Source: Clostridia bacterium
GTDB taxonomy: Bacteria; Bacillota; Clostridia; Oscillospirales; CAG-272
Assembly (NCBI GenBank): GCA_017411605.1
Contig: JAFQPR010000062.1
Location: forward strand, 21,713 to 85,712
DNA: 64,000 bases
Direction of reading: 5' to 3'
In this document: positions 36,260 to 63,131 of the stretch, in pieces
Numbering within the stretch: the first letter of the stretch is position 1
Layout of the letters: each line of letters starts with the position of its first letter
Position numbers and translations under genes: made by a program
Notes under the pieces: model-generated
What the model was told of the DNA's origin: nothing
The model's database searches: none
What the model saw: only the letters and a program-made list of their open reading frames with translations

Positions 36260-36391
36260 TCAACCGAGGTCAAAGTCCCAAATACCGTCGTTATCTTCTT
36301 TAGGAGTCGTTTCGGTACCCGGAGAGGTAGTTATGATATCTTCCATTCCAAGCTCAATGACCTCAAGCTCGGGAGTTATATATTTATTCAT
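36260..36391 (-). CDS. 43-residue acidic peptide, copy 1, translationally coupled to giant A
   Basis: The ATG at 36391 lies two bases after the stop of the 2329-residue protein and is preceded by AAAGGAGATG, a near-perfect ribosome site located inside the last codons of the giant. The product starts MNKYITPELEVIELGMED, has a Thr/Ser/Pro stretch (IITTSPGTETTP) and ends DNDGIWDFDLG. It has no Cys, no signal peptide and no membrane helix. Two more copies lie at 54955 and 62952, each just downstream of a giant protein with the same C-terminal module. The N-terminal part YxxPExExIExxxEDIITTS recalls small leader-like proteins of Clostridia; function unknown. Longer in-frame reading upstream overlaps the giant and is not supported. 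Confidence 0.85.
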   Translation of the reverse strand: MNKYITPELEVIELGMEDIITTSPGTETTPKEDNDGIWDFDLG

Positions 36392-37244
36392 TCTCACATC
36401 TCCTTTCCTACTACGAAATTCTTGTATACTTCTGCTGATTCGGAATACTTGATAAGTCTTGCAAGCAAAGCTTGAACTGAAGCCGAAGTATTTTCGTAAT
36501 AGCACATAAGGTTAAACGAACCAGAAACATCCGTTCCCGAAACCGTGTATTCAACGGTATTTCTTATAGCGTAGCCGTAAGTCGTCAGATATACCTTATT
36601 ACCGACTACTGTCTTTTCAAGCTTGGCACCGCCCATAGTGAACTCGAAGTCCTCGGGAGCGTATCCGCTTCCAACTACGAAGACGAGTGAAATCTTTTCG
36701 CCGAGATCAACGGATGCGCTTGAAATCTCTCCACCAACGGTATTAATTGCCTCTTCATTCATCTCGGGAGTGTTATTTGCATCGTAATCCGCGCCTATGA
36801 GCTCGTCAACGAGTGCCTTTGCACGCAGAAGCTCCTCATCGCTAACACGTCCCGTCGTGTTGAAGTAAACGTACGCTGCTCTTGCATAAGAAAGCATATC
36901 GCGAACGAGTGATTTTTCTTCGTCACTCTCATTTCCGCCAAGAACGATCTTTGCGTATTTAGCAACGTTCAAGGTCCACTTTGCGCTAACCGTGCTATCG
37001 CCCGATATAAGCGATACTGAAAGCACTATATCGTCAAGCGAGTCAGCAACCGCAAGTGACACGGGTATGCGGTAATACTTACCGTCTGCTAGCTCGGTTA
37101 TCATACTTTCGTCAAGAATAACGTTCTCTCCGTTAACCGATACTGACGATAAGTAATCGTTGATAGGTACGTATATATTGTATATAAGATTTGAATAAAG
37201 GCTTACGCTGGACTTGATCTTATAACCGACCATAACCTCGGGAT
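36262..37244 (-). repeat. Segmental duplication copy 1 (C-terminal module plus peptide gene)
   Basis: This stretch matches 54957-55939 without a length change over 983 bases. In a sampled stretch of about 175 bases I counted four differences. It covers the last 282 codons of giant A and nearly all of the peptide gene. Confidence 0.9.
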
Positions 37245-40200
37245 ATGCCTGATATGTTGCATATTCTCCATCTACAGAAGTCTTAGCAAATACGCACTCA
37301 ACGCCGGTATCAAGAGTAACCTTATTATTAACCGTGGAAGAAGTTACTTTAGATGGAACGGTGAGTTTTAAGTAACTACCGTCACTTCCCTTGCCAAAGG
37401 TTACATTGGATTTATCGTTAGAGGTGTAGATGGTAGAATTTGCAGTTGTGCTGCCAAGAACGATTTCACCACCGTTTACATTAACTGTTGCCGCAACGGG
37501 AGTTGCCTCTGAGGTATTGTTAAAGTTAAGCACATTAGTAGCCTTAAGAAGTCCGCTTACGTCAAATACGCAATTGGTAAATTCTATAGTGTAGTAAACG
37601 GGCATAGTCATAGGCTGACTGCCATTCGAATAATGAGCAAGGAAATCGTTTCGCTCAATACCGTAAGCTGCGGTTATCTTAACGTTCGTGAAGTTAAGAT
37701 TTGCGCTCTTATATTGCTCGTAGGTTGAGTTAGACTGCGTTCCAAGTGTTAAGAGATTACCGCGAACAATAATTTCACCACCGTATACGTTAAGAGTGAA
37801 GCTCTGTTTATCTGCACTATAGGTTTTTGTTCTTGCAAAGAAGAGCTGGGTTGTATCGGTCTGCGTAACGGTGAAGCCGTTAAGGTTTACGTCAATCGTA
37901 CCGACTGCAGCACCGAGATTCTGGTCATTTGCCGTAGCCGTAACATTACCACGAAGAAGAAGTTTTGCATCAGCCGCACCAACTGTGCCAACAGCGCTTC
38001 TTGCCGCGCTCATCGCTTCGGTGAACTGCGATTTGGTGTATGCACCCTTGAACTCTCCGCTCTGGAAGAATACTATTGGATATGCGTTTGCATCAGCTTT
38101 TTCCGCTGGAATAGTGCCGTAGCCTTCGATATATACCTCAGGCTGCAAGGTATAACTTACATAATCACCAATGGTCACGGGATTTATAAATTTGGCAACT
38201 GCTCCGTCATTTGTGTAGAACGTCTTGTTGTTAATGATAGTTGGATTATTCTTAGAAAGATATGTGTTTATATCCGTATGAGCGGTAAGCGTGAGATATT
38301 TGCCATCACCGCCCTTGCCAAAGGTCATCGAAGCATTACTGCTGCCCAGAGCATAAAGTGACGTTCTCCATGGATGAGTACCGCTTCCGTCACCCTGCCC
38401 TGCTATAAGCTCACCGCCGTTGATTTCAAAATCAATATTAGTGTTCGCAGCATTCAACTGGAAGATCTGATTTGCCTTCTTAAGCTTTGTAAGATCGATC
38501 ACGCAATCGTTCATACGAACGTCAAACTGAGCCAATGTATCACTTGTTCCGGATACTGTACCCGAAGTGGAAACTACAAACCAAGTGTTGCTTCCCATGG
38601 GAGCACTTAATGACACGTTAAGATTAGTAAAGTTCAACTCCGCATCCTTAAGAGGACCTGTTGTTGTACCGCCATTCTGTGTTCCAATCGCAAAGAACTG
38701 ACCGCCAAGAACTATATTTCCATCATAAACGTTCAAGGTGAATTTCTGTGCAAAATTATTGACAGTTTTCGTTCTCGTGTAGAACAAATAACTTGTATGA
38801 GTTTGAGTAAGAGTAAATCCATTGAGGTTAATATCTATTACTCCTGCGGTTTGGCCAAGGTTTTGATCCTCTGTTGTAACCGTTGCATCACCGCGAAGAA
38901 GAATCTTTGCAGGAGCCGGGTTCGCTTCGTCTTTGAGACCTAAATTCGTTCTGGGATAGGAAAGAGCCTTATCGAATTCGTCTTTACCAAAAGCAGCTTT
39001 AAATTCACCGTTCTGGAAGATTACTATCGGATAAGTCTTTTCATCTGCTTTATCCGCAGGAATTGTTCCATAGCCTTCGATATAAACTGCTTCGGATGTT
39101 TTGTTTTGCAAACTATACGTTACATTAAGAGCCGTTTCTTCAGTTTTAACGAACTTAGCTTCGTTTCCGTCCGACGTTCCATTGCTGCTAATTTCGGAAT
39201 CCAAGTAAAGAGAATTATTAGTCAAAGCTGCCGCAGTTGTTACTTGGGTAGGAAGAACAAGACCGACATATTTATCGTTGCTACCCTTACTTAACGTCAA
39301 GGATGATACATCGTTTAAAGCATAGATAGTAGTATCAACGCTACCTCTCGAGAGCTTAATCTCACCGCCTTCGATTGCGAAGCTAACCGCAGGTTTAACT
39401 GCTACCGCGGCGTTGTTGAGGTTAAATATGAGAGAATTCTTTGCTGCCTTGCTAAGATCAAATACACAATCGGTAAAGGTGATATTATAATCTACGGTAG
39501 TGTTAGTGTTGTTAGAGATACTGCCGTTGGTGGTCAAAATCAACGAATCGTTAAGCTTGACGCCTCTCTGAACTTCGATATTAACGTTCTCGAAGATAAG
39601 GTCAGCACTCTTGAACTCACCGGTAGTACTTCCCTGAGTTCCTATTGCGAAGAGATAGGATTTTATAGAGATAGAACCGTTTCTTACCTTGAAGGTTAGG
39701 CTCTGAGACTCGTTGCTATAAGTCTTCGTTCTGAGCCAGAATAGAGCGCCGTCGTGGTTCTGAGTGAGAGTAAATCCGTTAAGGTTGATATCAATCTTAC
39801 CAACTGCCTGACCTACATTTTCTTCGCGTGACAAAGAAACAGCATCTCCGCGAAGAAGAATCTTTGCAGCAGGCTTATCGGGATCCTGAACGCCTGTATG
39901 AGAAAGAACGAGTCCTCTAGCGTCTGTTAATGCTTCTTTAAACTGGTTAGCTGCAAATGCCTGCTTGAACAAGCCATCTTGGAAGAGAACTATCGGATAA
40001 AGCTCAGCGTCCGCATAATTTGAAGGAAGCGTTCCGTAACCATCGATTTCAACGTCGGAGAAGCTCTTGAAGGTAAAGTTATCAATGAATACCGTACCGT
40101 CCTCGCATCTGAAGACCATCGTCTGAAGAAGAGAGTCGCTTGCTACGTTTACGTAGTTATCCTTAGTTCTTGAGCCGGTGATAGTTTTACCCTTGCTGTC

Positions 40201-43200
40201 GGTCACCGTGCTTGTTATGGTTTTACCGCACCACTCGATTCTTATACGGAAGGTCTCCTCACCGTCATAGGTATATGCGTGAGTCGTTGTTTCTCCAACC
40301 TGCATAGTGGAGTCCGAATGATGAAGACCTACCTGGTTATAATATCCGCCGGGCGCGACGTAAAGCGTTCTCGTGCTTGCCGCGCTGTTCGTTCCCCAGC
40401 TCGTTACGTTTGCATCAAACTCGAATACGTATGTATTGGTTGGGTCATAATTCTCTATTCCGCCAATAGCTTTCAGCCAATTAAACTGAACGCTTTGTTT
40501 ATCGGTAAGCTCAATGCGCTGAGAAGAGAATGAAGGAGCTTTAGCGGAGTATTTTCCACTGTTTTCCGTCTCCCACATACCGAGAGCAGCAAGGTCTGCA
40601 TAGGTGAAGTAATGGAAGTCATCGGTATAAACAACATCTTCAGGCTTCTCTTCCTCTTCTTCAGCCTCCACTATAGAAAACTCATCAAGAACGAGTCCGT
40701 TAACCTGCTTGATTGTTACTTTGATAGAATTTTCGGTAACATTAAAGACCGCATAGGTAGGCTGCTCTCCTACATTGGATATTACAACCGCCTGCTCTTC
40801 TATGTTAGGATAATCGCCAATACGATCGTGGTTCAGCGCGGTTGCTCCGATGAGCATATAAACCGTACCGTCACCCTTGGTTATAAGGTCGGGATTCTCC
40901 TTAGTTACGATCTCGCCGTTCTTCATAGGATAGCTTCTGGTTACAAGATGGGAGTGACCCTGAATAACGAGGTCAACATCAAAGCCCTCAAGAATATCAG
41001 CGAGGGTATTTCTGTCATAACCGCCGCCGTAACGGTGATAAACGCCTTGATGCGCAAGAACTATAGTCCATTTAGCATCCTTATTTGCTTCAAGGTCTGC
41101 CTTGAGCCAAGCTCTTTGAGCTTTCATAATAAGATCATCCTGCGCACTGTAGGAGCCGGAATTGTATACGATGAAATGGGCATCTCCGTAGTTATACGAA
41201 TAGAAGGTTTCATCCATATACTTAATAAGCAACTGCGCCCATGCAGCATCTTTTACATCAGAGCCAAGAGCGTTGATAGCGCTTACAACAGTTGGATCCA
41301 GGTAAGCATTTCCGCCGTTATCGGGATGGTTGAAATGCATTCCAAAGTAGAAGTTCTGATTTGCCGTAGTGAGGTTATCATCGTGGTTTCCGGGAGTTGC
41401 AAAATGTGGTATGGAGGCGCCTGCTTCTCCAAGAGCCTTGAAGTAGAGATTCCACTGTTCTTCCTTAAGTCCTTCTTCCACAACGTCACCGGTGTGAAGA
41501 ATAAAGGCGGGATTCTTAACCTCTTCCAAAGCCTCGTCGAAGGCAGCCTTCGTATACATAAAGCCTTTGTTTGCAACTTCTGTTCCGCCCCAGGTGATAC
41601 CCTGAGTATCTCCTACAGCGATAAAGGTGAATTCTTTTTCGTCACCTGTTGCAGTAGTGAAAGTATAAGCCTTACTCCAATCATTTACTTCATCGGAGCT
41701 ACCCTTAACGCCTATTTTATATTCATATTCGGTATTTGCAACAAGACCCGACACATCTGCCTTGAAGTAATCTTCATCGGCATATTCGGTAGGCTCGGTA
41801 AGCTTATAAGCATCGGCAACAATCCATTCGGATGCGCCATTAACTCTATACTTTATAGCCATAGCATTGCTACCGATAAACTCAGCCTTTGCGGTCCATG
41901 CAAAATGCCTTGACGAAGTCGCATCGGTAAACGAGGTAACGAGGTTATATACGTTAGCTCCAAAGCCTTCCGATGATGGCTCGATAGTTACAACCTCATA
42001 TTCGTTAAGAACGAGATTTTCATAAGACAGGCTAACGTCCTTAACCCTTTCCGCATTAGTCGCATACGCAACAATTCCGCTACCGGAATGCTTATTGTAA
42101 GCACCCTTGCGAACGATTCCACCATCGGGAAGAGTTACTTCAACGATAGTCATATTCTGTGCAGGATTTACGCTCACGTAAACTTTATAGTCACCGCTTC
42201 TGTAATCACCGTTAACTTCAGCGCCGAGTATTGTAAGTCCACCGTCCGAAATTGAGAAGAGCTCTGTAGTTCCGAGTTTAATATTAACTTTACATCCGAT
42301 TACGTAGTTTGCAACAGCGCTGTAAAGAGCCTGCTCGTTGTTTGCAATAGTAACAGGAGTGGTGCTTACAGCAGTGAGATTAGCCGTAGCAAAGGAATAA
42401 GCCTTTCTTACGAACGCCTCACCAATCATCTGCTGAGTAAGAGTATCGTAGTGCCAGCCGTCCTGCTGAACAAGGTCTTTTGCTTTGCCGCTCTCGGGAT
42501 CAACAAGATCGTATCTTGTGTCAAGCATCGCAACGTTTTTAATAGTTGTATCAGCAGCTAATTTATCCTGACCTGCCTGAACTGCAGCAAGTCCCGCCTC
42601 ACTGTTGGGAGCATATGCGGGGTTGCGGTACACTCTGCCGTAAACCGCCGGCATATCCGAAAGATCCTCTCCCGTGATGATTCCAACATCACGTCTTACG
42701 TCGGATATAAGAGTTTTAAGGAGAGTGGAATAAAGGTCAGCAGTCATATCACCGTGATTTCCGTCTCGCTCTCCCTGCATCCACCAGAAGCCCTGAACGA
42801 CGGGGGTATAACCTTCTTTTTCGAGCTTTGTAAGAGCTTCTTTAACGGTAGAAATAAATCCGTCGTAAAGGTCGCCTATTTTATCACCGTCAAAAGCTAT
42901 ATCGGGATTAGCCTCGATATATGATGGCGGTGTCCAAGTTGCTATATTGTTATCCGCCGTAACACCGTTTGCAGAGAGCTGAGTATCTCCGTTTGCATAC
43001 TTGATTATAACGTGCTTCTCACCGCTTTTGCTAAGCGCGGTTGCAATTCCGATTTCAGCACCGGAATATGACGCATCCTTACCAAGTCCGAAGGTAACGG
43101 GAACAAAATTCGTGATATCGTTTCCATACCCCTTTCCGTAGTAGAGAACGTTTTCGATTCCAGCATCAAGAATAGCTCCGTCGGAGTATCCATCCGGGTA

Positions 43201-43383
43201 ATTCGTCGTTTCTCCGTAGCCTACCGCATTCGATTGACCTGCGATAAGCCATACATTGATTTTTTTGTCGGGTTCAACATTATCTCTACCCGACACACTT
43301 GCGCTTATAACAAGTGCAAGACTAGAGAAGACCAATGCCAAACTAAGCATAACCAATAAAAGTCTTTTGGTTTTGGTTTTCAT
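36394..43383 (-). CDS. Giant secreted protein A: SASA-type esterase, metallophosphoesterase, beta-repeat domains
   Basis: The 2329-residue protein has a signal peptide (about 1-28). Order: SGNH/sialate O-acetylesterase-like domain about 40-330 (VWLIAGQSNAVGYG, GFWWMQGERDG, QDGWHYDTLTQQ); beta domain 345-450; fibronectin-III-like domain 470-575, as before purple acid phosphatases; calcineurin-like phosphoesterase 580-895 (VGDTQG, HTGDVVEEG, TPGNHDD, LAHQGVYH, IQGHSHL); a ConA-like domain about 918-1110; three repeats of about 300 residues (1111, 1431, 1751) opening with GYGTxPxxxAD and containing INLNGFTLTQ, probably beta-helices; and a C-terminal module 2048-2329. No LPXTG signal is seen. It closes the long operon and is translationally coupled to the peptide. 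The esterase and phosphoesterase look catalytically complete; the substrate is unknown, probably an acetylated, phosphorylated or sulfated glycan (inference). Confidence 0.88.
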   Translation of the reverse strand: MKTKTKRLLLVMLSLALVFSSLALVISASVSGRDNVEPDKKINVWLIAGQSNAVGYGETTNYPDGYSDGAILDAGIENVLYYGKGYGNDITNFVPVTFGLGKDASYSGAEIGIATALSKSGEKHVIIKYANGDTQLSANGVTADNNIATWTPPSYIEANPDIAFDGDKIGDLYDGFISTVKEALTKLEKEGYTPVVQGFWWMQGERDGNHGDMTADLYSTLLKTLISDVRRDVGIITGEDLSDMPAVYGRVYRNPAYAPNSEAGLAAVQAGQDKLAADTTIKNVAMLDTRYDLVDPESGKAKDLVQQDGWHYDTLTQQMIGEAFVRKAYSFATANLTAVSTTPVTIANNEQALYSAVANYVIGCKVNIKLGTTELFSISDGGLTILGAEVNGDYRSGDYKVYVSVNPAQNMTIVEVTLPDGGIVRKGAYNKHSGSGIVAYATNAERVKDVSLSYENLVLNEYEVVTIEPSSEGFGANVYNLVTSFTDATSSRHFAWTAKAEFIGSNAMAIKYRVNGASEWIVADAYKLTEPTEYADEDYFKADVSGLVANTEYEYKIGVKGSSDEVNDWSKAYTFTTATGDEKEFTFIAVGDTQGITWGGTEVANKGFMYTKAAFDEALEEVKNPAFILHTGDVVEEGLKEEQWNLYFKALGEAGASIPHFATPGNHDDNLTTANQNFYFGMHFNHPDNGGNAYLDPTVVSAINALGSDVKDAAWAQLLIKYMDETFYSYNYGDAHFIVYNSGSYSAQDDLIMKAQRAWLKADLEANKDAKWTIVLAHQGVYHRYGGGYDRNTLADILEGFDVDLVIQGHSHLVTRSYPMKNGEIVTKENPDLITKGDGTVYMLIGATALNHDRIGDYPNIEEQAVVISNVGEQPTYAVFNVTENSIKVTIKQVNGLVLDEFSIVEAEEEEEKPEDVVYTDDFHYFTYADLAALGMWETENSGKYSAKAPSFSSQRIELTDKQSVQFNWLKAIGGIENYDPTNTYVFEFDANVTSWGTNSAASTRTLYVAPGGYYNQVGLHHSDSTMQVGETTTHAYTYDGEETFRIRIEWCGKTITSTVTDSKGKTITGSRTKDNYVNVASDSLLQTMVFRCEDGTVFIDNFTFKSFSDVEIDGYGTLPSNYADAELYPIVLFQDGLFKQAFAANQFKEALTDARGLVLSHTGVQDPDKPAAKILLRGDAVSLSREENVGQAVGKIDINLNGFTLTQNHDGALFWLRTKTYSNESQSLTFKVRNGSISIKSYLFAIGTQGSTTGEFKSADLIFENVNIEVQRGVKLNDSLILTTNGSISNNTNTTVDYNITFTDCVFDLSKAAKNSLIFNLNNAAVAVKPAVSFAIEGGEIKLSRGSVDTTIYALNDVSSLTLSKGSNDKYVGLVLPTQVTTAAALTNNSLYLDSEISSNGTSDGNEAKFVKTEETALNVTYSLQNKTSEAVYIEGYGTIPADKADEKTYPIVIFQNGEFKAAFGKDEFDKALSYPRTNLGLKDEANPAPAKILLRGDATVTTEDQNLGQTAGVIDINLNGFTLTQTHTSYLFYTRTKTVNNFAQKFTLNVYDGNIVLGGQFFAIGTQNGGTTTGPLKDAELNFTNLNVSLSAPMGSNTWFVVSTSGTVSGTSDTLAQFDVRMNDCVIDLTKLKKANQIFQLNAANTNIDFEINGGELIAGQGDGSGTHPWRTSLYALGSSNASMTFGKGGDGKYLTLTAHTDINTYLSKNNPTIINNKTFYTNDGAVAKFINPVTIGDYVSYTLQPEVYIEGYGTIPAEKADANAYPIVFFQSGEFKGAYTKSQFTEAMSAARSAVGTVGAADAKLLLRGNVTATANDQNLGAAVGTIDVNLNGFTVTQTDTTQLFFARTKTYSADKQSFTLNVYGGEIIVRGNLLTLGTQSNSTYEQYKSANLNFTNVKITAAYGIERNDFLAHYSNGSQPMTMPVYYTIEFTNCVFDVSGLLKATNVLNFNNTSEATPVAATVNVNGGEIVLGSTTANSTIYTSNDKSNVTFGKGSDGSYLKLTVPSKVTSSTVNNKVTLDTGVECVFAKTSVDGEYATYQAYPEVMVGYKIKSSVSLYSNLIYNIYVPINDYLSSVSVNGENVILDESMITELADGKYYRIPVSLAVADSLDDIVLSVSLISGDSTVSAKWTLNVAKYAKIVLGGNESDEEKSLVRDMLSYARAAYVYFNTTGRVSDEELLRAKALVDELIGADYDANNTPEMNEEAINTVGGEISSASVDLGEKISLVFVVGSGYAPEDFEFTMGGAKLEKTVVGNKVYLTTYGYAIRNTVEYTVSGTDVSGSFNLMCYYENTSASVQALLARLIKYSESAEVYKNFVVGKEM

Positions 43384-43414
43384 TTCTTTTTTCCTTTCTT
43401 ATCTTTGATATATT

Positions 43415-44260: not shown

Positions 44261-44265
44261 ATTTT

Positions 44266-49998: not shown

Positions 49999-50009
49999 AT
50001 TGCCACCAC

Positions 50010-53000: not shown

Positions 53001-53672
53001 ATTATCAAGGCCGAGTTTTCCCGAACCTAATTTGATAATGTTCTTCTCCACAATCGTTCCACCCTGGGGGAAACTTGTTCCGGTGTAAGTAACTCTGACA
53101 TTCTTCATAAAAACGTCGCCTATCATAAAATGAAGAATCGGTTGATCCGCTGTAGAAAGATTTGTAGAAACGATATTGAGATTCTCTACGTTTACTTCCG
53201 TCCGGACGTCCCTGACGAAGAACATAGATGCACCGTTTCCGGTAGCAATCCACGTTCCTGATTTACCGCTCTCATCGGCACCGTCTATGTTAAGCTTATA
53301 GCCGGTTCTTACCTGAATGACGTTTCCTGAATTCGCCGTTACGGTATGACCGTTAAGGTTCAGATTAAGCGTTATGGTAGGGCTCATATTTCTGAACTCC
53401 CAGTAACCCTTTCCGCCTACCTGAAAATCCTTGTTAACGTCGATCGTTATGACTGCGTTTTCATTTTCCGCAGTTGTTGCGCTGTCAAGCTCCGCCATAA
53501 ATTCATCGAAGCTTCCGTGTCTTGTGTCAGTCTCTCCGTTTTTCGTTACCGTCATCGTCACTTCCTCTGTGGAATACGTTGATGCATCCACGGCGTTGAC
53601 CGCAATGACGATACTAAAAACGAATACGATGAGCATAAGACAGATCAAAAATAATTTTCGTTTGATACTCAT
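50010..53672 (-). CDS. Secreted sialate O-acetylesterase-like protein with two beta-helix repeats
   Basis: The 1220-residue product has a signal peptide (about 1-28), two homologous repeats of about 310 residues (50-355 and 365-680) that open with SFDEFMxELD and contain NLNGHTVTAxSGNVxQVRT, and an SASA-type esterase (about 684-1064). Catalytic blocks are VIVISGQSNAAYEL, CVIWYQGEENS and GTIHPSIKSPIGH. A C-terminal beta domain (to 1220) has an unusual YVFEGDPSLVIETRYVG tail but no anchor. It is the first gene of the long operon, divergent from lysR. Confidence 0.9.
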   Translation of the reverse strand: MSIKRKLFLICLMLIVFVFSIVIAVNAVDASTYSTEEVTMTVTKNGETDTRHGSFDEFMAELDSATTAENENAVITIDVNKDFQVGGKGYWEFRNMSPTITLNLNLNGHTVTANSGNVIQVRTGYKLNIDGADESGKSGTWIATGNGASMFFVRDVRTEVNVENLNIVSTNLSTADQPILHFMIGDVFMKNVRVTYTGTSFPQGGTIVEKNIIKLGSGKLGLDNCILEDTSSGELKFTAIYSYSNPTNPNVELKNTEIKAYYGFKSTNSSITMENCKATTNAEVFKGTSVVVVTDSELITYGESISAANCDITYKYGTGNNSVTVGSGIEFSDNYSTDVEAYFAYQGNGKYILKSGKLEEVTVTIVKNGVTTTKDCSFDEFMQELDNQETALSENTTYNVVMNKSFTIGGKGWWELRNMSPTATLNIDLNGHTVTASSGNVVQVRTPYTLNMEGTDDQGNIGTWRAVGNAASMFYMQLSAGADARANIENINIVCTNLSSTEQPVLHLASGITTMKNVNVTYTGTDFPQGGTIEDKYLIAVKQSANLVLENCTLVDKSSGKLNVYGIQTWNTATFSMNNTTVKAYGGLKCNTGTNVITNSKISVTSDVFLGGASFTVTDSELITTNSTFSSTTGRVTFNYGEGKTSVSLANGSAITGNFFVEEGYAFIPYGNGKYVIGSDVGLSTVKMTSIYSDGMVFQRDMPINVFGTCRKIGAEIKVTLGGETVIAVVDSTGNFKATFGARAAARGLTLTVEQLGVDIPTVFTYTDVAIGEVIVISGQSNAAYELYKMEDAAEYIANADNYSSIKVFRTPTKWEFYEIEEGIGSWYTVTSELLKKSSVISGDVSAIGYVLATRMADELGDDVAIAIIDASYVGSGIYSWIEFNYFKETFGNTSYTGVQEGIERYNDYVSFYLENGRYPTSANEVASYFEKPYRKTPGVCYNAMIAPIEGYTAKCVIWYQGEENSLSHKDTYGIFFDALKESYKKAFSNEDLKFFAVQLAPYATNQGDFTVTQYNLGEADDTFVISTSREGPVLNASDLAHGTIHPSIKSPIGHRVADSVLKNVYELYADEVVEAPRVVSVTANGNKLIITFDTELSLSYGNVLLGFEIAGADKKFETAVGEITGNTVTLTADGVDSPAYVRYAYSSMQLILKDGTVISNPSLYNAVANGKAVIKGPDGTEYVFEGDPSLVIETRYVGNLTNESGHPMPTFMLAVGYGE

Positions 53673-54752: not shown

Positions 54753-54844
54753 TTTTGAATTAATCAATTTAAAACATCGCACTTTACTCTTTTAAATAAA
54801 TATAGCTCGTTTTGTAAGTTATAGTTTACATAAACCAAAAAAAT

Positions 54845-54885: not shown

Positions 54886-54954
54886 AATGTATTCAGATAA
54901 TTTTAAAAATAATTAGTCGTTACTGCCACGGTATTTTGAAAAACAGACGATTTT

Positions 54955-55086
54955 TTAACCGAGGTCAAAGTCCCAGATACCGTCGTTATCTTCTTTGGGT
55001 GTCGTTTCGGTACCCGGAGAGGTAGTTATGATATCTTCTCTTTCAAGCTCGATGACCTCAAACTCGGGAGTTATATATTTATTCAT
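54955..55086 (-). CDS. 43-residue acidic peptide, copy 2, translationally coupled to giant B
   Basis: It is placed exactly like copy 1: ATG two bases after the giant's stop, with AAAGGAGATG inside the giant's last codons. It differs from copy 1 at only three residues (Phe for Leu in ITPEFEVIELERED, and Glu-Arg for Gly-Met). The Thr/Ser/Pro middle and the DNDGIWDFDLG end are unchanged. The peptide could be exported, bound by the giant's C-terminal module, or processed; none of this is shown by the sequence. Confidence 0.85.
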   Translation of the reverse strand: MNKYITPEFEVIELEREDIITTSPGTETTPKEDNDGIWDFDLG

Positions 55087-55939
55087 TCTCACATCTCCTT
55101 TCCTACTACGAAATTCTTGTATACTTCTGCTGATTCGGAATACTTGATAAGTCTTGCAAGCAAAGCCTGAACTGAAGCCGAAGTATTTTCGTAATAGCAC
55201 ATAAGGTTAAACGAACCAGAAATATCCGTTCCCGAAACCGTGTATTCAACAGTGTTTCTTATAGCGTAGCCGTAAGTCGTCAGATATACCTTATTACCGA
55301 CTACTGTCTTCTCAAGCTTGACACCGCCCATAGTGAACTCGAAGTCCTCGGGAGCGTATCCGCTTCCAACTACGAAGACGAGTGAAATCTTTTCGCCGAG
55401 ATCAACGGATGCGCTTGAAATCTCTCCTCCAACGGTATTAATTGCCTCTTCATTCATCTCTGGTGCGTTATTTGCATCATAGTCCATGCCGATAATCTCG
55501 TCGACGAGTGCCTTTGCGTGCAAAAGCTCCTCATCGCTAACACGGCCCGTCGTGTTGAAGTAAACGTACGCCGCTCTTGCGTAAGAAAGCATATCGCAAA
55601 CGAGTGCTTTTTCTTCGTCGCTTTCATTACCAGAAAGAACTGCTTTTGCATATTTAGCTACGTTCAAAGTCCACTTTGCACTAACCGTGCTATCGCCCGA
55701 TATAAGCGATACTGAAAGCTCTATATCGTCAAGTGAGTCAGCGACCGCAAGCGACACGGGTATGCGGTAATACTTACCGTCTGCTAGCTCGGTTATCATA
55801 CCTTCGACGAGAGTAACGTTCTCTCCGTTAACCGATACTGACGATAAGTAATCGTTGATAGGTACGTAAATATTATATACAAGATTTGAATAGAGACTTA
55901 CGCTAGACTTGATCTTATAACCGACCATAACCTCGGGAT
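54957..55939 (-). repeat. Segmental duplication copy 2 (C-terminal module plus peptide gene)
   Basis: Same-strand match to 36262-37244 with constant offset 18695, so no indels. Similarity drops sharply upstream of 55939, where the two giants have different repeats. Confidence 0.9.
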
Positions 55940-58900
55940 ACAAGCTATAGTTTGAATAGCCGTTTTCCACGGATGACTTAACGAATATACAATCGATTCC
56001 TTCTTCGGTTGCAACTACATTGCTAATTTCGGAAGATGCAATTCCTTCGGGAATGCTAATGGTAGTGTATTTTCCCGATGCTTTTCCAAAGATGATCGAG
56101 GACTCTGAGTTGCCGCCTTCAAGATTTACAAATGTGATACCCTTTGTAAGTATCTCACCGCCGTTTATCTCGGCAACAGCTTTACAAAGTGCGTGACTGA
56201 AGTCAAACAGAAGAACGTTTTCATTCGAAGATCCCTCAAGATCTAAGGAACAGTTATTAAACGTAATGTTACAGAACTGATCGGGATCGGCTTCCTTAAA
56301 CGCGTTGGTCGTCAATACCGAATCGGTAATAGCCCCCTCTGTCAATACTATATCAACATTATCGAAAACAAAGTCAAATCCGTTTCCACCGGGATATGCT
56401 GCCCAGCCACCCGTCGAGGGATCCCAGCTTGAGAATTTCATAAACGGATGAGAGCCGAGGACAAACGATCCGTTCTTGATATTCAAAGCAGTATTATTAG
56501 TTGTCTTTTTCTGCGCTGAAAATACTACTCTATCTGTAGACGTAAACGTATGTCCACCAAGGTCAAAGGTAATGGAATAAGTCTGGCTTAAATTGTTATA
56601 CTGACCTTCTTTATAAGTGAAATCACGGCGCATCAAAATTACGGACCCGTTCACCTTTGCATTGCTTAGCGCACTTGTCGCATTATCTCTTCCAAAGTAC
56701 GGTGTCGCAAGAACAAGTTTACCTCCGAGGAATACCACGAAGGGATACGTATTAGCATCGGTATACTTATAAGGAATAGTTCCATACTCGGTTATAACAT
56801 CCTCGCCGAGAGTATATACAACGTCAGTGCCCGAAGCGACGCCTTCGGAATATGAAAGCTTTGATCCGCTGACCGAATCAAACTGCTGATTGGTTATCTC
56901 AACACCGTTTGCAAGAATGCATTTTATATATCCATCTAATCCTTTGCCAAATTTAATTGTATCAGCGTTGTCCTTGGTTGCGAACTCAGCCATTCCTACC
57001 GTTCTATCGGAAATGATCTGACCGCCGTTTACCGTTACGTGGAATACCGCGCCAAGACCTGAACGATTTTGAAGATTAAACATTATCTCGCTTGCGTGAC
57101 TGCCGGTATAGTCGAATATACAATCGTTAAAGACCATATTTGCCGTTATTGTATTAGAGGTAGCTCCCACGCCGTCCTCCCATGTTTCTATAATAACGTT
57201 ATTTGCCTTTTCCGATACAAAACGAACGTTTTCAAATTCAAAATCGAAGTAAACGTCACCATTAAGGCCGCCGCCATAGTTATAGCAGAAGAATGCACTC
57301 CACTCTTTGTTTACCATGGTTCCGTTCTTAACTGTAAGCTTACCGCCGTCAAATGCGCCGCCGCTATAATATCCCTCAAGGATATATGGCGATGCCGCCT
57401 TGGTAATAGTGAATCCGCCAAGGTCAAGAGTTATACTACCCTTAAGATTAGATATGAAAGCACCGTTTGTCTGAGAAACGTTATTTCTAAGAAGGATTAC
57501 ATAATCACCACTTGGATTTTGCATTGCTTTATTGGCAGCATCGGTGACATTCTGATAAGCGCCGATGTAAGCTTTAGCCTTTGTGAATAGTACTACAGGG
57601 TACTCATCCGCCGAGGACTCATCCTTAGGAATAAAACCGTAATCGGTTTCTACGTCATATGCGTTTTTCGCAATTGCCGTAAAGGTGGTATTATCTTCGC
57701 AAACGAAGCTGTAGCTCATATTGTCAAGCGATTCAAGAATGGATATAGCATCGCCTGAACCTACCTTCATATTTAAGGTATTGATCTCATATTCATTAGG
57801 AATATCAAAAGTAATGTTTACATTTTCGCCTTTTTTGTAAAGTCCACCGCCGTTTGCGCTCACGTTTGCGCCTGCAATTTCAACGATATATTCACCGTTA
57901 ATAACATTAGCTTTTTCTACGAAGCTTCTACCAAGATAGCTCTGTGTTGCGGCATTGAAGTGCCATTGATCCTGAGTATCGTATTCCGAACATCCCTTGG
58001 GACTTACGAGAGAAGCATAAGGATCGGATTCAACGTAAGCGCTCTGCTGCTGTTGCACTTTGTTTATTCCTTCTTCGAGGTCAGCACGCTTTTCGGTGTA
58101 TATCTGACCTATAACGAAAGGCATATTAGACATATCGCTGCCGATTACTGACGCAAGGTCATCTCTTACGTCTGAAGCAAGGTAATCAAGAAGCTCAGCA
58201 TATACGTCTGCACCGCCATTGTAGGTCTCCTCTTCGCCTTGCATCCACCACATACCCTTAATTACGGGAGTATAACCCATGCGGCGAAGCTCAGCTACCG
58301 CGGATTCAACAGTATTTATAAAGTTGACATAAAGGTCTCCTGTCTTATTTCCGTCGGTTGAAATACCCTTATCTGAAATATAAGAAGGAGATGTCCATGT
58401 TCCGAAGTTGGTAGCTGCCCACGAATCGGTAACGGGATAAAGCGCGGTTGCGCCCTGTGCATATTTGATAATAGCATTCATCTCTCCCGTATTTCCGAGA
58501 GCTGCCGCGATTCCGAGCTCTGCGCCCGCGGTATTTGTATTATTACCAAATCCGAGCTTAACGGGAGCAAACGAGGACTGCCACTTTTCACCGTATCCGT
58601 AATAAAGAATGTTATTAAATCCATTCGTGTATCTCGGATCTGCCATCTGAGCTGAAGTCAATCCCTCTGCGTATCCTACCGCATTTGACTGACCGCCGAT
58701 AAGCCATACGTTGATCTCACCCTTGCTTTCCTCCGCGGGAGCTTCTTTAATAGTGAAATCAAACTGATTTGCTCTGTTGAAGAGTATTTCTTTACCCTCG
58801 TTATTAGCTGTTCTGCAAGTCGAAACGTATTCTACCGATACGTCCTTACCGCCGTTTCTGAAGTAGAGCATAGCAACCATTCCTGTTTTGAATCCGTATG

Positions 58901-61745
58901 CTCTGTCCATCTTCTGCGGATCTATGAGGAACTGATGGACCGTATTTCCATGATCGCCGATGTCTTCTCTCATAACGATATTGTTATAATCGATATGTCC
59001 CGAAAGAACAAGCGCGATATTTGCGTGCTTTCTGACAAATTCGTCCCAGATCTCATCACCGTTATTATACTTGAGATAATGCTCATTGGTTGTTCCCGTA
59101 GGCTTTGGAGCAGCATAATCACCGCCGTCAATAGTAGTTCCGTCAGCGTACATATAACCGTGAGTTGTAACTATTACTCTTCTGTGATTATTCTGTGCAA
59201 CAACGTCATTTGCCCAGGCAAGAACATCATCATTTGCGCCATACTCGAGAGCGAGAAGCATATAAGGCGTTCCATCTACCTCGAAGTTCATATAATAGTT
59301 ATAAACGTCATTCCCCTGGTAATATCCTGTGATATTCTTGGTAAGACTTGTTTCATCCTTGAAGTTTTCGTTAAATCCCGTATCCCAAGGACGCATAAAG
59401 TCGTGGTTACCGCCTATAACCGAGTAAGGGATATTGTTCGCGCCAAGCTTGCTTACGATAAGATTCTTAGCATATGCCCATTCTACACTTGCGGAGCCTG
59501 TTCCATCCGCGAGCTTGCCGTTATCAATTATATCTCCGAGGCCGAAGACATATTTCATCTTCTTTGTATTGTAATTGTTTGCTATCCAATTATAGATATA
59601 CTCGGTATAGTTCGTGCCGTTAACGGCATCCTGATATACCATAAACTGAGTATCACCCACAACAGCGAAGGAATAATCGTAATCCTCGGTGGTGAAATCC
59701 TTCTCATAGAAGAGGTGAGCCATATCGTAGCCGTTGCCCGATTGGTCTATAACAACATCAGCCGTTGCCTGATCGCCCGTCGTATTATAATAAGCAATAA
59801 GGCTATCCTTATTTGCTTCAACTCCGTTTTTATATGAAGCCATTATCTCATCGGCACTCAGCGCTCTGTTATGAAGAGCAACGTTTTTCATATTTCCGTG
59901 CCAATAAAGTGATGTGCGAACGCAAGCACCAAGAGAAACGGGGCCTGTCAGCTTCATCTTCTGCATATCCATAGTGAAAACGTAACCTGACTTCGTGTAC
60001 GTATCTACAAGCTTACCGTCAACGTAACACATGAATACGGTATTATTTCCTACGGTTTCGTGAGTTATAGCAACGTGAACAAACGCGTTTCTTCTAACGT
60101 CATAGTTAAATGCGTGATTTATCTTATTCTCACCGTTCTCGTAAATATAAATACCGGGTTTACCACCACTCTTGATCTCAAACTGGAAGCTATCACCATT
60201 GCTATTAGGATAGTTGCCTATTATTACACCTGGTCTGTCAACGTTCATTGGAGCATATATAAGCGCCTCGTACGTATAGGGTGCAACGTCAAGATCCTTA
60301 GTTAAATATATGGGCTCTTCGGTTTCGGTAAAGGTTCTGCCCTCTGTAGGCTTCCACTCCGAGTAGTTCGCGTGATATCCGTTGCCCGACTTATCTTCGA
60401 TAAATCCGTCCTTAGTAGCAGTAAGATCGTAATAAGCGATTACACCATCATCAGCTACATCAACTCCGTTTGTATAGGAGCTCTTGATCTCATCCGCGCT
60501 GAGCGCTCTGTTATGTACAGCTATATTTTTGATGCTTCCCTTCCAATAAAGATTGGGGCGTCCGCACTGACCTATGGACACTTTTCTTGTTTTTGCATAC
60601 GCTTCGGGATCAAGTGTAAATACATAGTTCGCCACTGTGTAAGAATCTACCAGCTCACCGTCTACGTAGCATTTAAAGATAGTATCACTTCCAACGGTTT
60701 CGTGAGTTATAGCAAGATGAACGAAAGTGCCACGTCTTATATCATAATTAAACTGATAATTGACCTTGGCTGCTCCCTCGTCCCAAATATAGATGCCGGG
60801 GCGTCCATTACCTCTTACCTGGAACAAGAAGCTATCCCCACCCGCATTTGGATAGTTCGCTATAATTGTTCCCGTATCGGTTACTCCGGGAGGCGCATAT
60901 ACTACAGCCTCGTAAGTAAACGGAGCCTCGGTGTAGTCCTTGGTAACGTAAGGAATATTAGTTGTTTGTGTAAACGTTGTTCCCTCGGCGGGTCTCCAAT
61001 TTTTATTACTTGCGTGATTCTTATTCAATGATTGATCAACAAATATTCCATCTTTGACGTCCGTAAGATCGTATGCATAAAGAAGACTCGTGTCAGTAGT
61101 ATTGTAAAACGTAGCTGCGTGATCTGCAGCGATCTGCGTTTCCGTTCTGATACCTTTATACATAGCAAGATTTTTTAAAACACCTTTGAAGTAAGAGCCG
61201 TTTCCGTCACGTCTGTCACCACCTATGACAAGCGTATGGGTGGTATTGTACATATCAGTTGCGGCATTAGAATAAGTAATAGTTGCGTTAGTATTCTTTC
61301 CGTTTACGAAAAGAGTAGCTACACCCGTAGCTGTATCAACGGTAACTGCTATCTTAGCAAACTTAGGATCGGCATCGGTACCCATGTGCTGAGTAATATC
61401 ATAGTCAATCGTCAGATAGCAGGTTCCGCAATCAATGAAAACAAATACTTTTCCAGCCCGAATCTCAAATGCATACGCATCGGGATTGTTATAGTTTGAT
61501 ATTATTGCTCCCGCTCTGTCCGCTTTTTTGTAAGCATCGGGAATATAAAGCTCAGCTTCGAACGTTATCGGTCCATCAGGCTTTAAATTACCGTGCATTT
61601 CATAAAGCTCTGCTGCGGTGAATTTTTTGCCCTCAATGTTCGCCGCATCCGTTTTCAATGACATTGCGAAAAACACGCCTATCGTCAGACAAAAAACTGC
61701 AAGAGCTATGAATAATTTTCGTGAATTTAACAGTTTTGCTCTCAT
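55089..61745 (-). CDS. Giant secreted protein B: three LamG domains, metallophosphoesterase, SASA-type esterase
   Basis: The 2218-residue product has a signal peptide (about 1-35) and three LamG/ConA-like domains (about 50-225, 270-420, 485-635; the last two share LHNRALSADEI or HNRALSADEI). A calcineurin-like phosphoesterase at about 690-985 shows VVGDTQFM, GLGDIIDNG, IGGNHDF, VTTHGYMY and LSGHIDYNN; the last motif has Ile-Asp in place of the usual His. An SASA-type esterase at about 1005-1285 shows VWLIGGQSNAVGYA, GMWWMQGEEE and QDQWHFNAATQ. Two large beta repeats (1368 and 1652 onward, with EYGTIPYKY and LDLGGFTI) precede the C-terminal module (about 1934-2218), which is nearly identical to that of giant A. 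The same catalytic pair occurs in giant A in the reverse order. Confidence 0.88.
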   Translation of the reverse strand: MRAKLLNSRKLFIALAVFCLTIGVFFAMSLKTDAANIEGKKFTAAELYEMHGNLKPDGPITFEAELYIPDAYKKADRAGAIISNYNNPDAYAFEIRAGKVFVFIDCGTCYLTIDYDITQHMGTDADPKFAKIAVTVDTATGVATLFVNGKNTNATITYSNAATDMYNTTHTLVIGGDRRDGNGSYFKGVLKNLAMYKGIRTETQIAADHAATFYNTTDTSLLYAYDLTDVKDGIFVDQSLNKNHASNKNWRPAEGTTFTQTTNIPYVTKDYTEAPFTYEAVVYAPPGVTDTGTIIANYPNAGGDSFLFQVRGNGRPGIYIWDEGAAKVNYQFNYDIRRGTFVHLAITHETVGSDTIFKCYVDGELVDSYTVANYVFTLDPEAYAKTRKVSIGQCGRPNLYWKGSIKNIAVHNRALSADEIKSSYTNGVDVADDGVIAYYDLTATKDGFIEDKSGNGYHANYSEWKPTEGRTFTETEEPIYLTKDLDVAPYTYEALIYAPMNVDRPGVIIGNYPNSNGDSFQFEIKSGGKPGIYIYENGENKINHAFNYDVRRNAFVHVAITHETVGNNTVFMCYVDGKLVDTYTKSGYVFTMDMQKMKLTGPVSLGACVRTSLYWHGNMKNVALHNRALSADEIMASYKNGVEANKDSLIAYYNTTGDQATADVVIDQSGNGYDMAHLFYEKDFTTEDYDYSFAVVGDTQFMVYQDAVNGTNYTEYIYNWIANNYNTKKMKYVFGLGDIIDNGKLADGTGSASVEWAYAKNLIVSKLGANNIPYSVIGGNHDFMRPWDTGFNENFKDETSLTKNITGYYQGNDVYNYYMNFEVDGTPYMLLALEYGANDDVLAWANDVVAQNNHRRVIVTTHGYMYADGTTIDGGDYAAPKPTGTTNEHYLKYNNGDEIWDEFVRKHANIALVLSGHIDYNNIVMREDIGDHGNTVHQFLIDPQKMDRAYGFKTGMVAMLYFRNGGKDVSVEYVSTCRTANNEGKEILFNRANQFDFTIKEAPAEESKGEINVWLIGGQSNAVGYAEGLTSAQMADPRYTNGFNNILYYGYGEKWQSSFAPVKLGFGNNTNTAGAELGIAAALGNTGEMNAIIKYAQGATALYPVTDSWAATNFGTWTSPSYISDKGISTDGNKTGDLYVNFINTVESAVAELRRMGYTPVIKGMWWMQGEEETYNGGADVYAELLDYLASDVRDDLASVIGSDMSNMPFVIGQIYTEKRADLEEGINKVQQQQSAYVESDPYASLVSPKGCSEYDTQDQWHFNAATQSYLGRSFVEKANVINGEYIVEIAGANVSANGGGLYKKGENVNITFDIPNEYEINTLNMKVGSGDAISILESLDNMSYSFVCEDNTTFTAIAKNAYDVETDYGFIPKDESSADEYPVVLFTKAKAYIGAYQNVTDAANKAMQNPSGDYVILLRNNVSQTNGAFISNLKGSITLDLGGFTITKAASPYILEGYYSGGAFDGGKLTVKNGTMVNKEWSAFFCYNYGGGLNGDVYFDFEFENVRFVSEKANNVIIETWEDGVGATSNTITANMVFNDCIFDYTGSHASEIMFNLQNRSGLGAVFHVTVNGGQIISDRTVGMAEFATKDNADTIKFGKGLDGYIKCILANGVEITNQQFDSVSGSKLSYSEGVASGTDVVYTLGEDVITEYGTIPYKYTDANTYPFVVFLGGKLVLATPYFGRDNATSALSNAKVNGSVILMRRDFTYKEGQYNNLSQTYSITFDLGGHTFTSTDRVVFSAQKKTTNNTALNIKNGSFVLGSHPFMKFSSWDPSTGGWAAYPGGNGFDFVFDNVDIVLTEGAITDSVLTTNAFKEADPDQFCNITFNNCSLDLEGSSNENVLLFDFSHALCKAVAEINGGEILTKGITFVNLEGGNSESSIIFGKASGKYTTISIPEGIASSEISNVVATEEGIDCIFVKSSVENGYSNYSLYPEVMVGYKIKSSVSLYSNLVYNIYVPINDYLSSVSVNGENVTLVEGMITELADGKYYRIPVSLAVADSLDDIELSVSLISGDSTVSAKWTLNVAKYAKAVLSGNESDEEKALVCDMLSYARAAYVYFNTTGRVSDEELLHAKALVDEIIGMDYDANNAPEMNEEAINTVGGEISSASVDLGEKISLVFVVGSGYAPEDFEFTMGGVKLEKTVVGNKVYLTTYGYAIRNTVEYTVSGTDISGSFNLMCYYENTSASVQALLARLIKYSESAEVYKNFVVGKEM

Positions 61746-61783
61746 TTTTCTCTCCTTAATTGTTTATTTAGCACTAGCAATAC

Positions 61784-61812
61784 TTGACACTGCTAATCCT
61801 CTATGATATAAT
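61784..61812 (+). promoter_or_regulatory. Consensus sigma-A promoter of the AraC gene
   Basis: TTGACA, 17 bases and TATAAT, 78 bases upstream of the ATG at 61890. Confidence 0.9.
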
Positions 61813-61819
61813 TATAGCA
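61811..61819 (-). promoter_or_regulatory. Extended -10 promoter of giant B, overlapping the AraC promoter
   Basis: On the minus strand TGCTATAAT overlaps the last two bases of the plus-strand -10. There is no good -35, so activation by the divergent AraC protein is plausible. Confidence 0.55.
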
Positions 61820-61889
61820 ATAAAATTTACAAAATAAAATTCACAATACAAGATTTATATACTAAAAAGATATAAAAAAGGCGCATTAT

Positions 61890-62780
61890 ATGGAAAAATA
61901 TACTACATTTGACGTAATTAGGAACGAGGATATTCAAAGTTTTTGCGGACTCGAAAATGAAATATCCTTAGCACCCTTCCCTGCAAACGACATTCTCCCC
62001 TTGGATATAAGTCGTTTTGGAATTACTTTTCCCGACAAGAACTACCGAATAAAAAGGAATCCTGCCCCCTGCTTTATAGTTGAGTACATATGCTCAGGTG
62101 TTGGCTACATTGAAATAAATGGGACAAAGTATAAGCTTACTGCAAATGATATATATATAGTTCACCCAGGTGACTATGTTGAATACTATGCTGATAAGAA
62201 GAATCCTTACAAAAAATACTGGATAAACTTTCGTTCCTCCTTCTTTTTTGAGTTTTTAAAAAGCTATAATTTGAACGATAGAGTTATACACGGACTTGAT
62301 ATTTCAAAGCATTTTGAAGACATCTTCGAGCTTGAAAAAATCTCTCGAAGAAATGACGATCTGTATTTACCGGTAAGTAAAATTCTTTTCTCTATGATAG
62401 TTGATATAGCCATTTACAAAAAGAGTCTGCTCGAAAGTAAAGAGCTTGGACTTGCGAGAACCATTAAAGATTATTTGCAGTTCGGATTTAATGAGGATAT
62501 CACTATGGATTTGCTCGAAAAGCGCTTTTACCGTTCAAAATCGCAGATAACAAAGCTTTTCAAGGCGGCGTATAACATTACGCCTTATGCTTATCTTCTT
62601 GATATCAGAATCGAGTTTGCAAAAAACATTTTAAAAACTTCAAAAACACCAATCAAAGAAATTGCCGAATACCTCAGGTTTTCCTCGGAATATCATTTTT
62701 CGGGAAGCTTCAAAAAGAAAGTCGGTATTTCTCCAAGAAAATACAGAGCTCAGTTTACTAATTCAAATAAAGAATTATAA
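61890..62780 (+). CDS. AraC-family transcriptional regulator
   Basis: The 296-residue protein has an N-terminal cupin-like sensor (about 45-130, with CSGVGYIEINGTKYKL and YIVHPGDYVEYYA) and a C-terminal AraC double helix-turn-helix (about 190-290, with MDLLEKRFYRSKSQITKLF and IKEIAEYLRFSSEYHFSGSF). It is divergent from giant B with overlapping promoters and is its likely activator. A terminator-like hairpin follows at 62863. Confidence 0.92.
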   Translation: MEKYTTFDVIRNEDIQSFCGLENEISLAPFPANDILPLDISRFGITFPDKNYRIKRNPAPCFIVEYICSGVGYIEINGTKYKLTANDIYIVHPGDYVEYYADKKNPYKKYWINFRSSFFFEFLKSYNLNDRVIHGLDISKHFEDIFELEKISRRNDDLYLPVSKILFSMIVDIAIYKKSLLESKELGLARTIKDYLQFGFNEDITMDLLEKRFYRSKSQITKLFKAAYNITPYAYLLDIRIEFAKNILKTSKTPIKEIAEYLRFSSEYHFSGSFKKKVGISPRKYRAQFTNSNKEL

Positions 62781-62862
62781 ATTCACATTGTCATCATATA
62801 AACACAAATTATCATATCTATAGACTCGGTGCTTTGACAATGTTTATTTACTTTTTAAATCA

Positions 62863-62900
62863 AAAAGGCTTACTCGCACAAGGCTAGCAAGCCTTTTATT
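62863..62900. terminator. Terminator between the AraC gene and the third peptide gene
   Basis: AAAAGGCTT/AAGCCTTTT, 9 bp, with a 17-base loop and a following ATTTG. It resembles the hairpin at 36137 in sequence and in its place beside a peptide gene. Confidence 0.75.
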
Positions 62901-62951
62901 TGTTTGTTCTTCTGATTGGTTTATACGCTTAGATCAAAACTCAATCGAGAT

Positions 62952-63131
62952 TTAAGCAAGATCAAAGTCCCAGATACCGTCGTTATCTTCTTTGGGTGTC
63001 GTTTCGGTACCCGGAGAGGTAGTTATGATATCTTCCATTCCAAGCTCAATAAACTCAAGCTCGGGAGCCATATAACTCATAACCCCGAATTCATTCTTTT
63101 CATTCTGCATTCCGAATTTTGAATTCTGCAT
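62952..63131 (-). CDS. 59-residue acidic peptide, copy 3, downstream of a third giant
   Basis: The ATG at 63131 follows AAGGAGGGG and lies 13 bases after the stop of the giant. From MSYMAPELEFIELGMED onward the peptide matches copies 1 and 2, with the identical middle IITTSPGTETTP and end DNDGIWDFDLA. It has an additional N-terminus of 17 residues (MQNSKFGMQNEKNEFGV) that looks derived from a short nucleotide repeat (GCATTCTGAATTC-like). A start at the internal ATG of MSYMAPE would restore the short form, but the strong ribosome site favours 63131. Confidence 0.8.
   Translation of the reverse strand: MQNSKFGMQNEKNEFGVMSYMAPELEFIELGMEDIITTSPGTETTPKEDNDGIWDFDLA

Follow-up and report, generated by a model that had tools for sequence, protein, structure and literature searches.

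The window analyzed here is a stretch of 64,000 nucleotides (nt) on contig JAFQPR010000062.1 of a Clostridia bacterium genome (assembly GCA_017411605.1). It contains three tiny open reading frames (ORFs), all on the minus strand, which share the core EDIITTSPGTETTPKEDNDGIWDFDL, start 2, 2, and 13 nt past a stop codon (copies 1, 2, and 3, respectively), and are each preceded by an AAGGAG-type Shine-Dalgarno sequence. The first-pass annotation, made from the letters of the window, had described these coupled peptide ORFs and their common core; they are present as described, and the family proved larger, with 32 members and one fragment in the source genome. We consider it likely that the peptides are trans-encoded precursors of a ribosomally synthesized and posttranslationally modified peptide (RiPP) system similar to that of the linear polyphosphorylated peptides (LPP), each made together with an exoprotein and all relying on common enzymes.

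Peptide genes and their large upstream neighbors

Copy 1 (36260..36391, minus strand) encodes a putative LPP-like precursor of 43 amino acids, assigned by similarity search and by nonsynonymous and synonymous substitution rates (dN and dS). Its presumed leader, which carries a YxxP motif and runs through a conserved Ser (MNKYITPELEVIELGMEDIITTS), occupies 36323..36391 on the same strand, the processing point being placed by comparison with the main text of the LPP report (PMC13381572). The tail (PGTETTPKEDNDGIWDFDLG; 36263..36322, minus strand) was delimited by core alignment and dN/dS. The Shine-Dalgarno sequence AAAGGAG (36400..36406, minus strand) lies within the 3' end of the upstream gene (36394..43383, minus strand). 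According to domain search and hydropathy, this gene encodes a secreted-type protein of 2329 amino acids with a SASA esterase domain, a purple acid phosphatase N-terminal domain, a metallophosphoesterase domain, and a C-terminal module (36406..37233, minus strand; module profile and AlphaFold2 model).

Copies 2 and 3 are arranged in the same way, again on the minus strand. Copy 2 (54955..55086; 43 amino acids) follows a gene for a secreted-type protein of 2218 amino acids (55089..61745; domain search and hydropathy) with LamG-like, metallophosphoesterase, and SASA domains and the C-terminal module (55101..55928; module profile). Copy 3 (62952..63131; 59 amino acids) has an N-terminal extension of about 17 amino acids (MQNSKFGMQNEKNEFGV) before the leader. 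It follows the 3' end of a host gene (63145..63999) that is cut by the contig end; the module encoded there (63151..63972; module profile) is the best-scoring module match of the genome. The hosts of copies 1 and 2 have signal-like N-termini, as judged by a hydropathy rule and not by a signal-peptide program, so that their earlier description as giant secreted proteins holds. It does not extend to the host of copy 3, of which 285 codons including the stop are visible and the N-terminus and full size remain unseen. The likeness of copies 1 and 2 alone says little, as the module ends ahead of both are nearly identical. A divergent AraC-like regulator gene (61890..62780, plus strand; assigned by eye) adjoins pair 2, and a similar layout was read by eye at many other pairs of the source genome.

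In the following, G numbers denote genomes (G000 is the source genome), L numbers loci, and C numbers contigs. G000 consists of 104 contigs at 81.8% completeness, with the window at C52:21713-85712. A protein search of this genome yielded 31 matches, comprising 24 full core copies, one copy cut by a contig edge, one 3' fragment, and five relatives with an N-terminus of the same kind and other tails. Two extra members were found beside diverged module genes (C62 and C49), and a member on C8 was confirmed. Searches of Pfam and NCBIfam with the peptides gave no match, and a search of viral contigs gave no confirmed relatives.

Among the 24 full copies, third codon positions of the core GTETTPK[ED][DE]xDGIWD[FLM]D vary much. 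Over the 20 core codons, median dN was 0.02 and median dS 1.33, representing saturating synonymous change, and dN was lower than dS in every one of the 157 pairs (of 276) for which dS was defined. The N-terminal 19 codons behaved alike, with the lower dN in 141 of 153 pairs for which a dS was obtained. The amino acid sequence is thus under strong purifying selection, which implies translation. The earlier suggestion that selection acts on the peptide itself, for which equal rates of both kinds of change were the proposed counterevidence, is borne out by these values. When the genes were split just after the conserved Ser, the tails of G000 had a median dN of 0.09 compared to 0.48 for the leaders.

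Nearly every assessable copy in G000 lies directly behind a long gene, usually one encoding a signal-like N-terminus and a module of the same family. In a first set of 24 members with at least 190 nt of upstream sequence, 22 followed a long ORF, defined as 83 codons or more, with -1 to 28 nt between its stop and the peptide start; many of these ORFs extend beyond the fetched stretch. L025 and L032 instead precede a secreted-type gene (by 153 and 87 nt). With three further members on C8, C62, and C49, closely behind a long ORF at 14, -4 to -1, and 13 nt, the count rose to 25 of 27 members with enough upstream sequence, at -4 to 28 nt. A hydrophobic segment following Lys/Arg was found in 15 of the 16 upstream proteins with a called N-terminus; the N-terminal start of the exception, L012, was probably miscalled.

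Viewed from the module side, for which the search covered G000 (relatives were viewed from the peptide side), the module profile gave 39 matches: 27 with a peptide, six cut by a contig end, and six without. A family peptide thus stands beside 27 of the 33 assessable module genes, once (C85) on the upstream side, which substantiates the coupling to module-bearing proteins proposed at first. The six genes without a family peptide are four tandem giants on C80 and one gene each on C49 and C98. At L010, L024, and L027, the hosts end in another domain and the module is internal. The AlphaFold2 model of module copy 1 (mean pLDDT 90.8, pTM 0.85) consists of two units, each a beta-sandwich plus helix. 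A Foldseek search with it returned weak matches only, to Ig-type tandems and IsdB/IsdH complexes at a TM score of about 0.2, and therefore no function was derived from the structure search.

Some features of these loci are recorded here in their own right. The tandem giants (L274, 2702-18378, and L275, 2-3923, on C80) carry a diverged module, no peptide was found beside them, and their contig is also that of the RRE-peptidase pair described below. Copy 3 (63081-63131) and eleven other copies of G000 (L009, L011-L015, L017, L019-L021, and L031) carry, in frame ahead of the leader, N-terminal extensions of the MQNSK[CF][RKG]MQNEKNE type, which derive from a short repeat-like stretch (CAGAATTCAAAATGCAGAATG). 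In L030 (C44:24918-25205), the 3' end of the peptide gene is doubled; the two copies lie 165 nt apart, and the roughly 115 nt between them contain an inverted repeat (GAAAACGAT..ATCGTTTTC). The arrangement resembles a small insertion whose end was duplicated. Seven contigs of G000 (C12, C46, C2, C72, C83, C19, and C73) end within or beside module-peptide pairs, as expected, because near-identical repeats break assembly.

Leaders and tails in related genomes

Profile A1 (E ≤ 0.01) detected the peptide in 58 of 117 relatives, and the broader profile A3 (E ≤ 0.001) detected it in 37 of the 291 genomes of the class set. The loci read in relatives were 60 plus 43 chosen ones, which are part of all matches. 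Over the loci read, the leader follows the consensus Y-x-x-P-x-[LIV]-E-[IV]-x-x-[LF]-x-x-x-D-[IV]-I-T-T-S, and the tails change. YxxP was found in the leaders of 107 of 127 distinct peptides, and the first aligned residue was Tyr in 122 of them; the Ser, present in all 127, is no evidence, since the split between leader and tail requires it. This set leaves out L208 (G366), L030, L031, and the G000 peptides of C8, C62, and C49. An upstream ORF of at least 120 amino acids ended -9 to 45 nt away for 95 of the 127 peptides (17 genomes), the misses being due in part to contig edges and to members that lie ahead of their secreted-type gene. At L208, the peptide frame is broken by several stop codons soon after the leader.

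Tails were common to the peptides of one genome in G000, G029 (GTETTPKEENDGIWDLDL), G065 (GTELPPQDETDVNWN), and G005 (INSQGNNDNTVGIWELPLNWDL), partly or by subgroup in G042, G041, G158, G133, and G054, weakly in G132 and G051, and hardly in G326, G370, G241, and G014. Mean tail identity was 0.57 within and 0.22 between genomes (permutation maximum, 0.30). The corresponding values for the leader were 0.59 and 0.42 (permutation maximum, 0.46), meaning that leaders, too, are more alike within genomes. Median dN was lower for the tail than for the leader in G029 (0.06 versus 0.24), G005 (0.03 versus 0.10), and G065 (0.05 versus 0.10) and higher in G042 (0.27 versus 0.13) and group A of G133 (0.14 versus 0.02); for group B of G133, tail dN/dS is uninterpretable because the tails differ by insertions and deletions. 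The two tail types of G133 were paired with two host-protein C-termini, and the hosts of some relatives, G005 and G133 among them, have different ends when viewed from the peptide side.

Enzymes accompanying the peptides

LPP, encoded by lppAKBSDN of Paenibacillus alginolyticus, were described in 2026, and the role of the peptides is not known (PMC13381572). According to the main text of that report, the leader consensus is YxxPxVLxHQxIxFETxxS, a RiPP recognition element (RRE) holds the leader Tyr and Pro, LppK adds phosphate to Ser 3 of the core, the LppS cleavage site lies two residues ahead of that Ser, and one to three precursors lie inside the gene cluster, often near capsule loci in Bacilli (PMC13381572).

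We searched for PF05402, the RRE family, because YxxP resembled leaders bound by such elements. It matched in 11 of 13 peptide-positive genomes and in 3 of 14 named control genomes; among eight peptide-negative genomes, G083 and G125 gave strong stand-alone matches and two more gave weak ones. The RRE of G000 (C80:14915-15178) forms a pair (C80:14915-15632) with a SipW-like Ser/His/Asp peptidase. An HprK-like kinase is encoded at C26:6303-6992 and an NTP_transf_5 protein at C70:17704-18405. Two large ORFs near the kinase gene resemble an ABC transporter pair (by eye), and ABC-like ORFs stand by the RRE or the peptidase in G133, G332, G162, G167, and G265 (by eye, with no family search); these are candidate counterparts of the MsbA-like ABC exporter of LPP. 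The kinase gene of G000 (L251) also adjoins an ORF resembling a Wzz-type polysaccharide protein (by eye), which is reminiscent of the capsule neighborhood of LPP clusters.

The peptidase gene is directly beside that of the RRE in 12 of 15 RRE loci and about 4 kb off in G083; none was seen at L237 and L239, the L239 stretch of G326 being read in part. Its Ser, His, and Asp are invariant in 12 aligned rows and correspond to the LppS triad. The pattern is that of SipW/SEC11-type signal peptidases, with a SEC11 match at an E value of 1.8e-4 and an archaeal-type signal peptidase match at 3.2e-7, the latter under that model's cutoff. The leader-binding residues N33, Y60, D70, and F74 of LppB appear to align with Asn, Tyr, Asp, and Phe of the G000 RRE; the Asn match rests on the hidden Markov model alignment, and a gap-free check, shifted by one before the loop, shows Tyr, Asp, and Phe only. 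Among 11 RRE rows, N and Y are invariant, D is conserved in at least 90%, and F is less conserved.

Across the class set, the peptidase (E ≤ 1e-20) was present in 34 of 37 peptide-positive compared to 43 of 254 other genomes, a stand-alone RRE (E ≤ 1e-5) in 35 of 37 compared to 61 of 254, and HprK (E ≤ 1e-10) in 36 of 37 compared to 50 of 254. Before these cross-tables, ten class genomes whose peptidase matches fell short of 1e-20 (the weakest at 1e-8) had been set aside, as had the relatives G069 and G110. Within the 117 relatives, the peptidase accompanied 53 of 58 peptide-positive and 15 of 59 peptide-negative genomes. NTP_transf_5 was found in 19 of 20 peptide-positive and none of six peptide-negative genomes tested and in 2 of 14 named control genomes. 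Some of the positives also contributed rows to the profiles and the genomes are related, so these co-occurrence statistics are descriptive.

The machinery is tied to the peptides by gene neighborhood as well, in other genomes. Nine genomes were chosen for having a peptide match close to a match of the RRE, peptidase, or kinase on one contig, and a family peptide was confirmed at all nine loci. Loci of G012 and G014, which are not among the nine, were read in part. The order in G327 is secreted-type protein, peptide, HprK, RRE, peptidase, and NTP-transferase-type protein. G091 has the same order from the peptide onward, its contig ending upstream; G129, G332, and G162 are similar, with an ABC-like ORF in the latter two; and G265, G167, G221, and G111 are variants in which some genes are apart, on the opposite strand, or on another contig. 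The family peptide stands among the cassette genes in G327, G091, G129, G332, G162, G265, and G167, and wherever upstream sequence was visible, the ORF ahead of it was long or signal bearing (by eye). For G000, there was no family match on the stretch of the kinase contig, and the genome-wide peptide search gave none near the RRE-peptidase pair.

Proposed maturation, possible end use, and alternative explanations

Judged by their sequence, the peptides resemble RiPP precursors and not chaperones, and YxxP...D[IV]ITTS at their N-termini is a leader of the RRE type. Two points go beyond the first-pass annotation, this leader and the matching LPP-type enzymes. Across species, the tail changes as the leader stays. 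LPP are resembled in the YxxP leader, the discrete RRE, the SipW-like Ser/His/Asp leader peptidase, the HprK-like kinase, and the NTP transferase, as well as in the Ser at the border of leader and core and in a conserved N-terminus with a variable C-terminus. In contrast to the LPP clusters of the main text (PMC13381572), up to 32 precursors per genome are scattered here, nearly all assessable G000 copies stand beside a large protein gene, and tails are common within several genomes. Because the LPP leader consensus is not matched in full and the in-cluster layout of one to three precursors is not seen in G000, the system is best regarded as an apparently new, dispersed, exoprotein-coupled variant that is LPP-like in anatomy and enzyme set, rather than as a plain member.

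Prochlorosins likewise derive from many scattered precursors served by a single enzyme set; their cores vary and their leaders are fixed. In G000 and some relatives, the variation is the reverse. Prochlorosin chemistry differs as well, and prochlorosins are not known to be coupled to exoproteins. The literature searched, which for LPP was the main text, contained no report of scattered, exoprotein-coupled precursors, and the words secreted, extracellular, exported, orphan, and signal peptide and the stem Clostridi do not occur in the LPP main text (PMC13381572). In our data, an LPP-type enzyme set accompanies dozens of precursor genes that neighbor large proteins of apparently secreted type; those of the window carry esterase, phosphoesterase, and lectin-like domains. 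The pathway is thereby tied to exoproteins in this bacterial class, and its function becomes testable. Precursor families scattered in trans would escape searches that are confined to the surroundings of the enzymes.

By analogy with LPP, the RRE would bind the YxxP strand of the leader, the HprK-like kinase would phosphorylate the conserved Ser of DIITTS, the peptidase would remove the leader near that Ser, and an ABC pump would export the acidic tail. What would then leave the cell in G000 is a short, acidic, phosphorylated peptide comprising PGTETTPKEDNDGIWDFDLG preceded by TTS or S. Outside the cell, this tail, much alike from dozens of loci, may act with the module proteins, a step for which the grounds are weaker. 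Among the roles initially offered, a processed peptide fits the RRE-type leader and the LPP-type enzymes, a surface partner is possible as the role of the mature peptide, and a cytoplasmic export chaperone is now unlikely. As end use we give first place, short of calling it probable, to a surface or assembly partner of the module; the coupling and the two tail types of G133 argue for such a partnership with the host protein. The tails common to the peptides of some genomes are an equally good argument for a signal. Somewhat more tentatively than the partner role, the system may represent an undescribed way of equipping exoproteins, whereby a coproduced RiPP precursor is centrally matured by the RRE, HprK-like kinase, SipW-like peptidase, and NTP transferase to a species-typical phosphopeptide and exported and then tethers, assembles, or marks the module protein at the surface.

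Several observations weigh against an LPP-like precursor system with exoprotein partners. Agreement with the LPP consensus is confined to YxxP and the final Ser, without HQ or FET, and the spacing from Tyr to Ser is 19 here versus 18 in LPP (PMC13381572, main text). The machinery of G000 is spread over three contigs, none of them the window's. G370 lacks an RRE, a kinase, and an NTP transferase, and its peptidase match is weak (1.3e-9). G120 and G398 lack the peptidase, G398 also the RRE, and five peptide-positive relatives lack the peptidase (four of them 55-68% complete, one 87%). Conversely, 43 to 61 of the 254 peptide-negative class genomes carry each enzyme, meaning that the enzymes do not require this peptide type. 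The cassette peptides of G129, G265, G167, and G221 are without the Ser, and several cassette peptide matches lie near the E-value limit (E ≤ 0.001). Finally, tail type tracks the host C-terminus no better than leader type does (pooled r, 0.40 versus 0.37), and specific coevolution of tail and host is indistinguishable from coinheritance. The four family-like peptides of G370 (L202-L205) have kept the Tyr and lost the Pro and are perhaps a relic or have a different reader.

The rival that survives best, and our second choice of end use although we think it rather unlikely, is a species-specific signal: with the same machinery, many loci would make one mature phosphopeptide that reports exoprotein output to kin. 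Tails that change less than leaders in G000, G029, G005, and G065, the strong difference of tails between genomes given above, and the AraC-like regulators that many pairs adjoin (by eye) would all suit this role. No receptor was found, and none was searched for. The faster-changing tails of G042 and G133 group A, the diverse tails within G326, G370, G241, G014, and G132, and the match of the two G133 tail types to two host-protein C-termini argue against a signal, and the tight spacing suggests stoichiometry with the protein.

Far less probable is a cytoplasmic export chaperone or pilot that serves the giant protein and is never processed. Coupling to secreted-type proteins and a small, acidic peptide with no signal sequence agree with it; the leader motif, the co-occurrence with RRE, peptidase, and kinase, and the occurrence of one tail behind hosts with different C-termini do not, although the hosts at L010, L024, and L027 hold the module inside. 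Marginally less credible again is that the scattered peptides bind the RRE as regulators or decoys and that the real LPP product comes from another, unseen precursor. The enzymes do lie on contigs other than that of the window peptides, but in other genomes family members stand where the cassette has its precursor, and decoys would hardly be expected in over 30 intact copies under selection.

A lasso precursor of the paeninodin type, acted on by an RRE, a B2 peptidase, and a macrolactam cyclase, was considered on account of YxxP and was set aside. Triceptide, graspetide, and ESX-type readings were weighed as well and not adopted. Paeninodin-type clusters share the RRE, HprK-like kinase, and nucleotidyltransferase, and their leader motif is WxxP, with Trp in place of the Tyr found here (PMC13381572, main text; PMC7533575, as far as seen). 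YxxP leaders also occur in lasso clusters. None of the 24 peptide-positive genomes searched had the B2 peptidase family PF13471 above the cutoff, G241 having a single match below it, and with the core taken to begin at the conserved Ser, the tails of G000 show neither Asp nor Glu at ring positions 7-9 (by eye). We give this explanation almost no weight. Functionless hitchhiking, in which duplication or gene conversion carries the peptide along with its module gene, is suggested by copies 1 and 2, which lie in near-identical duplicates, and by the joint inheritance of host end and peptide, but it is contradicted by the dN/dS data (core median dS of about 1.3 with a dN of 0.02) and by the peptide's presence in 37 of 291 class genomes and can practically be dismissed.

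Two further secreted-type proteins are encoded on the same strand upstream of pair 1 (46441-53672), with no peptide directly behind them. One shows leucine-rich-repeat similarity and, by eye, a C-terminus like those of L010 and L027.

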